Assembly (NCBI RefSeq): GCF_900112005.1
Contig: NZ_FOKK01000012.1
Coordinates: 62,001 to 126,000, forward strand
Length of the DNA: 64,000 nucleotides
From: Algoriphagus aquimarinus
Lineage (GTDB): Bacteria > Bacteroidota > Bacteroidia > Cytophagales > Cyclobacteriaceae
Direction: 5' to 3'
The notes under the pieces are model-generated. The model made no database searches, was not told the origin of the DNA, and saw nothing but the letters and a program-made list of their open reading frames with translations. Shown here in pieces: positions 13,240-37,993 of the stretch (the first letter of the stretch is position 1; each line of letters begins with the position of its first letter). A program made the translations under genes and the position numbers.

Positions 13240-13788
13240 TCAATCACACTGAATGGTCTTCTCTAGTTTAGAGGGGTCAAAACCTTTTTCTGTTACTGAA
13301 GCTACTAGCTTTTGGTAGACCTCTTCATTCATCACTGGCGTCCTCGACAAAATCCAGAGATACTTACGATTTGGATGACCTACTACTGCATAGGAATAAT
13401 CATCCGCCAAATCGATGATCCAGTACTTCCCTTTAAATGGCCAGAAGAACTGAACTTTGAGCTTGGCATTTCCAGACCCCTCTTCCACAAATGCCTTTGC
13501 TGTTGCAGTTTTCGTGGTTCCTTTATCAGGAAGGTTACATGTATTTTCTACGTTTATTGTTCCATCCTCATTAGCAGAATAGGTGGCTTTGGTACAGGTA
13601 CATCCTCTTTGGAAGGATTGAGGAAAAGAAGCTATTTCAAACCATTCTCCAGCATACTTTTCTAAATCCACATAAGGAACTGTTTCCAAATGTTGAGCTT
13701 GAGCTTTCTGTGAAAAGAACATAATGCCGGCAGCAGCCAAAATTGGTAATGCTAAGGCTAATTTTTCAGATCTATTTAAAATTCTCAT
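13240..13788 (-). CDS. blc: bacterial lipocalin (Blc-like)
   Basis: A 182-residue secreted or membrane-associated lipocalin. The signal sequence is MRILNRSEKLALALPILAAAG. The family motifs are YAGEWFEIASFP (the GxW motif), then CTCTKATYSANEDG, and the C-terminal WIIDLADDYSYAVVGHPN and YLWILSRTP. Such proteins bind fatty acids or lysophospholipids and are linked to envelope stress. The frame is open 18 codons further upstream, but those overlap the end of the TspO-like gene. The ATG at 13788 gives a proper signal peptide. It begins 10 nt after the TspO-like frame ends, the third gene of an oxidoreductase-TspO-lipocalin cluster. Confidence 0.9.
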   Translation of the reverse strand: MRILNRSEKLALALPILAAAGIMFFSQKAQAQHLETVPYVDLEKYAGEWFEIASFPQSFQRGCTCTKATYSANEDGTINVENTCNLPDKGTTKTATAKAFVEEGSGNAKLKVQFFWPFKGKYWIIDLADDYSYAVVGHPNRKYLWILSRTPVMNEEVYQKLVASVTEKGFDPSKLEKTIQCD

Positions 13789-13798
13789 GTTAGTTAGT

Positions 13799-14584
13799 TT
13801 AGTTAAAATTAAACGGCGCCGTTGCTCTGTTTTTATACCCATGATAACTGATCGCTATAAAAAGCAGGATTGCTCCCAAGAGCGCTGTCCACTGTAGCTC
13901 GGGTATACTTCCCCAATGTCTAACTGAAATTGCAATCAATGCCCAAACTCCAACACAAGCAAATTCCCTTAGGTTTCTTGTGAAGATCATAAAGAGGTTG
14001 AGGATTACGGCTACGATTATCATAACTATAGCCTAAGTGATCTCTGAGTCCCCAGCTCCCCAACCGGCTTTTCCAAGGTAAGCTGAAATGTTAGCAATAG
14101 TAGCCACAGCAATCCACCCACTGTAAAGTGCAATAGGCCACCATAGCCAAAAGATAATTGGTCGAGGCGCATCCCACCGCTCCATGTTTGTATTCAGAAT
14201 AGTTATAATAAGATTAGCTAAAATCCCCAACATAACGATTACGCTGATACCCGTATATTCCATCAGCCACATGTAAACCCACAGGCCATTCCCGATATTT
14301 GCCATGATCAAATAGGGACCGATTTGAGTCAGAAAATCAGAATCTTTAGTGGAGCTAAAAGCACGAGAAATAAAGAAGATCGCCTGTGCGAAAAGCGCTA
14401 AAAATATCAATCCCCAAATAGAAAATGCATAACCTGCTGGCGTGAATAGATTTTCATAGTCCGCACTAAGCGAACTAACGGTTTTGCCATCCAGGCCTTT
14501 TGCATTCACCCAGTAATTCCAAAATATTACTACGATCAGCACGATCATATTCAGGATGGCATATGCTTTATGTGATTTTTTCAT
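13799..14584 (-). pseudogene. TspO/MBR-like tryptophan-rich membrane protein interrupted by an in-frame TAG
   Basis: Two open stretches, 14584-14033 (183 codons) and 14023-13799 (74 codons), are in the same frame, separated by one TAG at 14033-14035 and three sense codons. Joined, they give about 261 residues, the length I expect for Bacteroidota TspO/MBR-related proteins. The features fit too: LFTPAGYAFSIWGLIF, a WLWWPIALYSGWIAVATIAN segment, and a C-terminal REFACVGVWALIAI helix. The stop sits where a tryptophan (TGG) would be natural, so one G-to-A change explains it. TAG ends other genes here, so genetic recoding is unlikely. It may be a nonsense mutant, a sequencing error, or a truncated protein lacking the last helices. 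Confidence 0.8.
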
Positions 14585-14586
14585 AG

Positions 14587-15978
14587 TTATTTCTTAACTG
14601 GGGTTAGTTGCTGAAGTAGTGTAGGAATTAGCTCCGTGACCGTAGGATGAGTTTGCACAGAATTCATCAGGGTTTTGTAACTCATTTTGCCATACATAGC
14701 GGTTAAAAAAGTCCCGATGATTTCATCTCCTCCTGTTCCCAAAACTGCTGCTCCGAGGATTTGTTCAGAATCTGCATCTACAATGACCTCCATTTTCCCC
14801 TGAGTTTCTCCTTTCTCCTTAGCCCGCGAAATATCACTCATCGCCATACGGGCAAAGAGTAAATTTTTACCAGATTCCTTTGCTTGAGAAAGTGTCATAC
14901 CCGCCCGTCCAAGTGGGGGATCTATGTATAAAGCATAGTTGATAATTCTATCGTTGACAGTTTTTTTCTTATCACCAAAAAGCTGATCTACCATGATCTC
15001 ATAGTCGTTGTATGAAGTGTGCGTAAAAGCCCCTCTGCCATTGCAATCTCCCAAAGCGTAAATGCTTTTAATAGTTGTTTCAAGCTTCGAGTTCACTTCT
15101 ACATAGCCTCTATCGTTGACCGTGAGATCCGCATTTTCGGGATTAAGAAGATCGGAGTTGGGTATTCTTCCTGTCGCAATGAGCAGATGTGATCCACTGA
15201 CTTGCTTATCTTTTCCTTCCTTGTGAAAAGTAACTGTGGCGCCACCAGATTTCTTGTTTTTACCTCGCAGACATTTGGCTCCGCAAATCACTTTTATCCC
15301 TTCATTTTCTAAGATTCCCCTGACAAGGTCTGACGTGTCATGGTCCTCTTTTGAAATCAGATAATTACCCATTTCCAAAACTGTAACTTTAGATCCGAAT
15401 CTTCTGAAAATCTGTGCGAACTCTAGTCCGATATAACTTCCGCCCACAACGATTAGGTGCTCAGGAATCTTTTCCAACTGAAGTATTGAGGTATTTGTGA
15501 GGTAACCCACATCAGCAAACCCCTCTGGAATTCTAGCTCTAGCTCCTACATTGAGGAATATTTTGGATGACTTCAGTACTCGAGAACCTACTTTTACCCG
15601 AGTTTTATCCAGAAGAGTAGCTGTCCCTCTGATCATGGAAATTTGAGGCGAATCAGCAAGCGCCTTTCTTAATCCTAACCTAGAGCTAGAAACAATTTTA
15701 TCTTTTCTCTTCTTGATAGCTTTCAAGTTGACTTTGGGCGACTTGGGCACTTCAATTCCCAGATTATGCGCGTTAGCTATTGCCCAAGCAGCTCTTGCAC
15801 TGGCGACGTAGGCTTTCGTGGGCGTACAACCTGTGTTGACACAGGTGCCTCCAAGGACTGCTTTTTCCACTATAGCAACTTTCCACTTTTCTTTGGCTAG
15901 AGCCAATGCAAGCGGATTTCCAGCTTGGCCAGAACCAATTATGATGGCATCAAAAGTTTCTACTCTGTCCTCTGTCAT
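14587..15978 (-). CDS. FAD-dependent pyridine nucleotide-disulfide oxidoreductase (mercuric reductase-like)
   Basis: A protein of 463 residues from this start. The FAD-binding motif is IIGSGQAGNPLA, followed by the redox disulfide motif GGTCVNTGCTPTK. A second NAD(P)-binding fold (VVGGSYIGLEFA), the FAD motif with ALGDCNGRGAFTH, and a C-terminal dimerisation domain complete the family pattern. The C-terminal cysteine pair of true MerA is absent, so mercury reduction is not supported; the substrate is unknown. An upstream ATG at 16014 would add 12 residues. It lies two nucleotides before the TspO-like gene, so they form one transcription unit with the lipocalin. Confidence 0.88.
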   Translation of the reverse strand: MTEDRVETFDAIIIGSGQAGNPLALALAKEKWKVAIVEKAVLGGTCVNTGCTPTKAYVASARAAWAIANAHNLGIEVPKSPKVNLKAIKKRKDKIVSSSRLGLRKALADSPQISMIRGTATLLDKTRVKVGSRVLKSSKIFLNVGARARIPEGFADVGYLTNTSILQLEKIPEHLIVVGGSYIGLEFAQIFRRFGSKVTVLEMGNYLISKEDHDTSDLVRGILENEGIKVICGAKCLRGKNKKSGGATVTFHKEGKDKQVSGSHLLIATGRIPNSDLLNPENADLTVNDRGYVEVNSKLETTIKSIYALGDCNGRGAFTHTSYNDYEIMVDQLFGDKKKTVNDRIINYALYIDPPLGRAGMTLSQAKESGKNLLFARMAMSDISRAKEKGETQGKMEVIVDADSEQILGAAVLGTGGDEIIGTFLTAMYGKMSYKTLMNSVQTHPTVTELIPTLLQQLTPVKK

Positions 15979-16042
15979 GCTCAAAAAATTTTTGGTGAGT
16001 AATTTTCGTTTCACTAAAAGTTACAAACAGAAAGCCAAAGAC

Positions 16043-16099: not shown

Positions 16100-16810
16100 T
16101 TAGATTTTTGATAGAATCAAGCTCCTTACATTTCCATGAAATTCATTAATGGCTTTTGTATGAAAATAGGGATAGATGAATTTATCTCTGAACATGGAAC
16201 CACTTCGATAGAAGGTCTTATGAGAAACTTCAGTTTTTCCATTTGGCAATGTTTTAAATCTGATCAACTGGGATCCTTCTGACTTTGAATTTTCCAAATA
16301 GCATATTTTAATCAGGTGGTTTTTCTTGTTCACTTCCTTTACTTCATGTCCTACTACTAATTTCACAGCCCCGCTGAAGACATGAAGAGTTAGCAAAATC
16401 ACTTGTCCTACACCTATACCTCCAGTGTATACTTGCCCAGGAAAAACTTCTTCACCGTTTATTCTTGAATACAATTGCTTGAATCGGACCATTTTACCTC
16501 CCCAGGCTTTTTCAGGTGAGATATTGACATAACTATCCCAAACACTATCAAAATCCTCATCATATATATAGGTTTCTAGGTGTTCGTGATAATTTGAATC
16601 CATTTCCTGATGGCATATTGACTTGAGGTTGGCAATATCAAGATCTGAGTCAACTATCTTTTCTGTGGTGATTTCTTGCATGGGTTGTATTGATTCTCTT
16701 TTGCGATTGGTTTTTAAATAAAGCGAAAGTGAAACGATTACCCAACCGTTTGGCCATAATAGGGGTGATTTGATGAAAATCTGATAAATTTTATCCATCA
16801 TAAGTCCCAA
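16100..16810 (-). CDS. hypothetical protein, possibly SRPBCC-like
   Basis: I do not recognise this protein with confidence. The frame encodes up to 236 residues, but an internal ATG at 16681 (MQEITTEKI) gives a cleaner 193-residue soluble protein, and the first 43 codons look non-conserved. The core alternates beta-like strands (GGIGVGQVILLTL, KLVVGHEV, GSQLIRFKTLPNGKTEVSH) and ends with a helix (HTKAINEFHGNVRSLI). This pattern resembles a lipid-binding SRPBCC fold, but that is only an impression. It is a single gene between two terminators. Confidence 0.6.
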   Translation of the reverse strand: MGLMMDKIYQIFIKSPLLWPNGWVIVSLSLYLKTNRKRESIQPMQEITTEKIVDSDLDIANLKSICHQEMDSNYHEHLETYIYDEDFDSVWDSYVNISPEKAWGGKMVRFKQLYSRINGEEVFPGQVYTGGIGVGQVILLTLHVFSGAVKLVVGHEVKEVNKKNHLIKICYLENSKSEGSQLIRFKTLPNGKTEVSHKTFYRSGSMFRDKFIYPYFHTKAINEFHGNVRSLILSKI

Positions 16811-37467: not shown

Positions 37468-37764
37468 CTAAAGCGTTGTAATATCCTTCAGAGTTGCTAG
37501 CGCCGTTTTCAATTCATCAGTTGATATTTCCCCTATTTTTTCGATAAGTCTATCCTTTGAAATTGATCGGACATGAAATACCATGAGTTCAGACTCGATC
37601 TTCAAACCATTTTTCGGAGATGGTTTTAGAATTGGATTTCCCTGATAGCTTTTGATTTTGGAAGTTAGAGGAGCCGTGATTACCACTTAGGATCACTAAT
37701 GGCCCGATTGCTCCGAGCCTATTACAGGATTTAGATCAGTCATCCAGATATCACCCTGCTTCAT
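37468..37764 (-). pseudogene. MazF/PemK-type toxin gene, disrupted
   Basis: From the ATG at 37764 the minus strand reads MKQGDIWMTDLNPVIGSEQSG, a classic MazF N-terminus, then runs into TAG, TGA and TAA. A middle piece (PLVILSGN) survives in a shifted frame. The C-terminal part (VVITAPLTSKIKSYQGN through IRSISKDRLIEKIG-like sequence) is intact from about 37686. At 99 codons the locus is shorter than the usual 105-115, so it has lost sequence as well as frame. The toxin should be inactive. Its start overlaps the 3' end of the antitoxin remnant. Confidence 0.85.
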
Positions 37765-37993
37765 CTTCGATTTGCTTTAGATAATTTTCCATTCCTTCTT
37801 CTGCCACCATTAGAATATCATCATCCTGAGCTGCTTTGTTGTAAGATTTGACATATTCAGCTCTTTTTAGATGATCCAAATAGAGATTCAGCGCATTTTA
37901 CATCAATTTATTCTTTGGCAGAGAAAGCTTTTTAGCATAATCGGCGAGCCTTTGAAGGAGGTCGTCGGGAAGTGTACTAGTGTAAGTTGCCAT
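37751..37993 (-). pseudogene. RHH antitoxin gene with a nonsense codon (MazE role)
   Basis: The minus strand from the ATG at 37993 encodes MATYTSTLPDDLLQRLADYA and on to LPKNKLM, then a TAA at 37898-37900. It continues in the same frame as NALNLYLDHLKRAEYVKSY to a TGA at 37751-37753, 80 codons in all. A ribbon-helix-helix core followed by an acidic tail fits the antitoxin of a mazEF-like pair. The TAA most simply replaces GAA (Glu), which is usual at that helix position. The reading frame overlaps the toxin start by 14 nt, as in intact modules. Confidence 0.82.

Follow-up and report, generated by a model that had tools for sequence, protein, structure and literature searches.

What does a single in-frame stop codon mean for a gene that otherwise appears well preserved? 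This question is raised by a locus in the window, which is the whole stretch of 64,000 nucleotides analysed here, where a gene coding for a long TspO-like protein is interrupted by one TAG. The sequence-only reading had placed a broken gene at 13799-14584 without giving its strand; the location was confirmed and the strand identified as minus (Table 1), where the frame of 262 codons translates into 183 residues, TAG (14035-14033), 77 residues and TAA (13801-13799), with one internal stop and no frameshifts. The gene is present in a single copy in its own genome (G000; 5.1 Mb, 39 contigs).

TSPO has been described as a stress-linked membrane protein of ancient origin that binds porphyrin (PMC8243069), and predicted networks connect its Pseudomonas and Rhodobacter representatives with a photolyase (PMC4237140); the passages in question make no mention of the long form. 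A literature search returned no paper on 'tryptophan-rich sensory protein' in Algoriphagus.

Table 1. Coordinates of the interrupted gene, its parts and its neighbours in the window
Feature	Position	Strand	Remarks	Evidence
Long TspO-like ('tryptophan-rich sensory protein') gene	13799..14584	-	261 sense positions and TAA, broken at codon 184	Translation, relatives, predicted fold
In-frame TAG	14033..14035	-	Codon 184, replaces a conserved Trp codon	Translation, relatives
Open part before TAG	14036..14584	-	183 residues, predicted five-helix TspO-like core	Fold comparison
Open part behind TAG	13802..14032	-	77 residues, still constrained; tail carrying the greater part of the three additional predicted helices	dN/dS, predicted fold
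In-frame ATG, putative restart site	14021..14023	-	9 nt behind TAG, opens a 74-residue ORF	ORF list
FAD-containing pyridine-nucleotide-disulphide oxidoreductase	14587..16014	-	2 nt between its stop and the ATG of the TspO-like gene	
Blc-type lipocalin	13240..13788	-	Likely ATG 13788-13786, separated by 10 nt from the TAA of the TspO-like gene; longer frame from 13842	

Codon 184 and the reading frame in relatives

The earlier proposal that the two open stretches are one gene split by a single TAG was borne out by comparison with relatives. Of these, 90 were confirmed in genome contigs and the best 80 were compared, each frame being read from where the match begins; they comprise ten Algoriphagus loci, the remainder coming, to judge from their titles, mainly from Flavobacteriaceae and related groups. 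In all 80 of these best 80 of 90 the frame crosses the site of codon 184, giving totals of 247-270 codons, and none ends there; relatives ending at this codon had been named beforehand as refuting the proposal. An alignment with relatives had been suggested as a check on whether tryptophan fits at the stop, and among the same best 80 of 90 the column is TGG (Trp) in 79 and TGT (Cys) in one. Tryptophan also occupies this column in 51 of the 52 rows of our alignment of the long form, A1 (98%), and, by eye, in all seven rows of a wider alignment (Algoriphagus, Zobellia, Aliifodinibius, the relative from genome G063, Thermus, Nostoc and Vagococcus). The single cysteine indicates that tryptophan is not absolutely required at this position. 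As judged from these sequences, TAG at codon 184 is neither ancestral nor common to the relatives.

The nearest of the best 80 of 90 relatives is A. aquimarinus ACAM 450, in which the gene is intact and which shares 96% identity over the first 183 residues. When the genus was sampled, the long gene was found in 25 of 60 genomes, the own genome G000 included, and G000 alone among these 25 carries an internal stop; on the rpoB tree it is the sister of G028 (97% identity), whose long gene has the same 96% identity and which we take to be the A. aquimarinus genome. Profile A1 matched 19 of the 198 genomes of a phylum sample, among them G000 with its TAG. In that sample we also observed two short A1-matching pieces in G167, which contain one TAA and one TAG, as well as a single piece of 52 positions in G249. 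Another interrupted copy occurs within the genus, in G050, where the long gene is split over two frames (contig L142, 4485-5277, minus strand) in a genome that has canonical TspO as well; the split reflects a break of independent origin or else an error of assembly.

The two open stretches had been said to reach together the full length of the family. This holds for the long subfamily of about 260 aa, but not for canonical TspO, whose strong PF03073 matches in the genus lie in frames of 155-206 codons.

Constraint on both sides of the stop

Relative to A. aquimarinus, the part before TAG shows 44 synonymous and 7 non-synonymous differences (dN/dS 0.034), and the part behind it 14 and 3, respectively, in 77 codons (dN/dS 0.052); for comparison, dN/dS is 0.093 for the adjoining oxidoreductase gene, 0.128 for the lipocalin gene and 0.039 for the gene at 16103-16681. 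Constraint this strong on either side of TAG means that the change is either young or an artefact, which agrees with the sequence-only reading both in this alternative and in its remark that the downstream part keeps good coding sequence. Together with the continuous frame of the relatives, it also assigns the downstream stretch to this protein. For relaxation behind the break, the data are the dN/dS of 0.052 against 0.034 and three tail changes on the window branch, numbers too small to speak either way.

Changes were polarised with five other Algoriphagus species as outgroups, which placed four amino-acid changes besides the stop on the window branch (T86, L236, L240 and N259) and five on the A. 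aquimarinus branch, with one unclear. Had the whole gene been free along the window branch, about 135 changes would be expected against the 4 seen, so that the unconstrained share of that branch is about 3% (bound about 7%, one-sided at 95%). In the tail by itself, 3 changes were seen against about 40 expected, a share of 8% (bound 19%). Of the four window-branch changes, three fall in the tail, compared with none out of five on the branch of A. aquimarinus (Fisher p 0.048, in a test picked post hoc), a contrast to which we give small weight. Each of the three tail changes leads to a similar residue or to one that occurs often, and the positions concerned are variable.

Internal stops within the match affect 4 of the 47 G028 ORFs of at least 80 aa that match the window: the long TspO-like gene, two ORFs that form a decayed pair elsewhere, and an ORF of 101 aa whose reality is doubtful. 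The decayed pair, at 37471-37993 on the minus strand, is a remnant of a toxin-antitoxin-like two-gene unit with four stops inside its matches to two G028 ORFs; by eye, its first part resembles a ribbon-helix-helix protein and is followed by a PemK/MazF-like beginning.

TAG as a stop codon in this genome

An open and constrained frame behind TAG is what would be expected if the codon were read as an amino acid by a suppressor tRNA or through recoding. Nevertheless, we rejected this explanation as very improbable. No CTA anticodon occurs among the 37 tRNA matches, and tRNA-Trp has CCA, although the list is incomplete (150 of 371 first-look candidates scored; tRNA-Ile is absent from the matches). 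Release factor RF1 (prfA) is present, with 486 bits against a cut-off of 423. Among the 39 window ORFs of at least 100 aa for which G028 has a counterpart, 36 terminate at the matching position, the TspO-like gene being one of the three that differ, and the stops at these 36 conserved ends are TAA in 25 cases, TGA in 6 and TAG in 5. TAG is thus in ordinary use as a stop, as had been argued before on the ground that it ends other genes here.

Predicted fold and the TspO label

Sequence comparison gave weak and mixed support for the TspO label. Neither half of the window gene matched PF03073, the Pfam family of canonical TspO (cut-off 24 bits), and searches of Pfam and NCBIfam with the halves and with the frame carrying X at the stop left the label unsupported; a weak NCBIfam match to AmaP (18.6 bits, cut-off 55) was dropped. 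PF03073 was found in none of the 52 whole members of A1, nor in seven additional long proteins of the genus that were scanned whole. The G063 relative scored 23.8 bits when whole and 26.8 as a core fragment, and that from G052 had no match when whole and scored 30.3 bits as a core fragment; both fragments pass the cut-off and speak for the label, having been picked where the match had appeared. PDB sequences yielded no match when searched with either profile A1 or the G063 relative, and hhalign against ten PF03073-matching genus sequences, one of them a divergent fragment, gave nothing (probability 0.12). The names that RefSeq gives to several long relatives also speak for the label: the 15 plasmid rows listed are named 'tryptophan-rich sensory protein' in seven cases and 'hypothetical protein' in seven, and one has no name.

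The label is carried mainly by comparison of predicted folds. The intact A. aquimarinus protein, modelled with 52 aligned sequences, gave pLDDT 88.2 and pTM 0.85, with long helices at residues 3-29, 50-75, 84-107, 111-132, 141-172, 181-203, 206-222 and 228-251; the 183-residue product of the window gene, modelled with 53 sequences (itself among them), gave an unchanged confidence (pLDDT 88.1). With VIA-align, six TSPO entries came top for the intact model (Z 11.4-11.7 over 144-148 residues, model residues 3-176; next entry 7.7) and seven for the 183-residue product (Z 12.0-13.9 over 138-148 residues; next entry 9.0), to be read with the caveat that helical bundles may reach Z of about 13 by common arrangement without kinship. 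Sequence identity in the structural alignments to TSPO chains is 10-13%. With plain Foldseek, neither the intact nor the truncated model had a match at E <= 0.001; two TSPO chains were listed for the latter, at probability 0.96 and 0.92, above that threshold.

The five-helix TspO fold is thus present in the predicted models. From them we conclude that the protein would consist of a TspO-like core (about residues 5-176) and a three-helix C-terminal tail, and would not be a canonical TspO. The earlier name, TspO/MBR-like, stands as far as the predicted core fold is concerned; it does not extend to the whole protein, as no whole-length member scanned passes the Pfam cut-off and three further helices are predicted. 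With its 261 codons and these extra helices, the protein is filed as long TspO-like. In the structural alignments the TspO-like part ends at residue 172-176, and the stop follows after a further 8-12 residues, by which point the sixth long helix has run for three. Being situated just behind the predicted core, a point absent from the sequence-only reading, TAG would leave the core of a 183-residue product whole and remove the tail.

Comparison with known systems

The core resembles the TspO/MBR family (PF03073; solved structures BcTSPO and RsTSPO) over about 170 residues, which align best to solved TSPO chains. Canonical members, however, are proteins of about 18 kDa with five helices only, whereas the window protein has 261 aa and three more predicted helices. 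A second comparison is with the long proteins of 261-262 aa that RefSeq names 'tryptophan-rich sensory protein' in Thermus, Nostoc, Vagococcus and others, which can be aligned with it from end to end and have Trp184; the window copy differs in being stopped at that tryptophan, and in its neighbours. Recent bacterial nonsense pseudogenes offer a third comparison. Like them, the window gene has a single stop, intact orthologues, a single copy and an undecayed remainder, but here the stop happens to fall just behind a predicted core.

No match to PF03073 was found in genome G000. Across the genus sample, strong matches to this family occur in 5 of the 25 genomes with the long gene and in 32 of the 35 without it (Fisher p 1.5e-8), so that both genes are found together in 5 of 60 genomes. 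We rejected this as evidence that one gene replaces the other: on the rpoB tree, which holds 52 of the 60 genomes (8 were omitted for want of a full or near-full rpoB match), the pattern amounts to five changes of one trait and three of the other, it comes mainly from one clade, and an independent-pairs test gives no support.

Discussion

The most plausible explanation, to which we assign a probability of roughly 0.7, is that the long TspO-like gene, placed in a run of oxidoreductase, TspO-like and lipocalin genes, is a very young loss-of-function nonsense allele. A recent single-base nonsense change would have struck a strictly kept Trp codon. Translation would then stop after 183 residues and yield the predicted five-helix core devoid of the conserved three-helix tail; the function of the protein would likely be lost, and the lipocalin gene behind might be translated less because of a polar effect. 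One broken gene amid intact neighbours speaks for such an allele. Even distant long relatives retain Trp184 together with the helices of the tail, which suggests that their loss matters and makes loss of function likelier than a working core. On the other hand, the predicted core is intact, so the truncated product might work, and the remaining constraint is equally expected of an artefact. A base-call error in sequencing or assembly, with the gene of the strain intact, is indeed the next explanation in our ranking, though an unlikely one. It would account for the constraint persisting before and behind TAG and for a single substitution present in none of the best 80 of 90 relatives. Against it stand the assembly itself, rated 99.99% complete in 39 contigs, and the 36 of 39 compared window genes that keep the end of the relative, which argue that the sequence is not error-ridden; substitution errors are, moreover, less usual in sequencing than indel errors. 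The TAG could also be a mutation of the sequenced culture.

Ranked after an artefact, and improbable in our view, is a working truncated TspO, in which the 183-residue core would act like a canonical-size protein and the tail would be dispensable in this lineage. The position of the stop just behind the core, the unchanged confidence of the truncated model, the concentration of window-branch changes in the tail and a genome devoid of canonical TspO are all consistent with it. However, Trp184 and the tail occur in all long relatives compared, bar the one with Cys at 184, the three tail changes are conservative or common and lie at variable positions, and a stop at a domain boundary may be a matter of chance. 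Similarly improbable is a domain-respecting cut, by which an eight-helix TspO-like protein would be turned into a five-helix one of near-canonical size in a clade lacking canonical TspO, whether or not the tail piece is restarted. A gene in two pieces, with translation restarting at the ATG behind TAG and core and tail made separately and then assembling, is very hard to credit. The open 74-codon frame would permit a restart, and the tight gene spacing here suggests translational coupling; yet the same ATG lies by chance inside the intact frame of relatives, where methionine is common (A1 consensus), and the restarted piece would lack the initial portion of long helix six. Annotators should be cautioned in this respect: 13799-14023, the second half, is no gene of its own.

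Taken alone, one young broken gene is of small importance. The young nonsense allele that we favour nonetheless offers a case from nature in which the long 'tryptophan-rich sensory protein' form is cut off just past its predicted TspO-like core, and comparing the window gene with the intact A. aquimarinus gene would be a direct test of the role of the tail. To our knowledge, no role has been assigned to this extra tail. If the domain-respecting cut were true, the locus would show, in nature and at the very start of the process, how a TspO-like core is released from its tail.

As to the job of the protein, published work on TspO and the neighbouring genes lead us to infer that it may sense or handle porphyrin or oxidative stress. 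The oxidoreductase gene lies upstream of the long gene in all ten Algoriphagus loci, and the lipocalin gene downstream in nine; the tenth, L008, ends 1.1 kb behind the match, with none visible. The lipocalin start at 13788-13786 was picked for its signal-peptide-like beginning and is the likely one. Alternative neighbours were found in 55 of the 80 loci (best 80 of 90), where a cluster exemplified in L012 by the ligase-associated endonuclease PdeM occurs; among the same 80 loci, a cluster of the associated DEXH helicase was found in 42 and one exemplified by a DNA-ligase fragment in 24, all names being taken from examples only. Given such neighbours, one may reasonably guess at oxidative or DNA-damage stress as the setting of the long TspO-like gene. 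In many Flavobacteriaceae (L012-L081), ligase-associated DNA-damage genes lie upstream, near the long gene, and on a Nostoc plasmid (L217, 7013-8437) a diversity-generating retroelement, annotated as reverse transcriptase and Avd, is situated near it.
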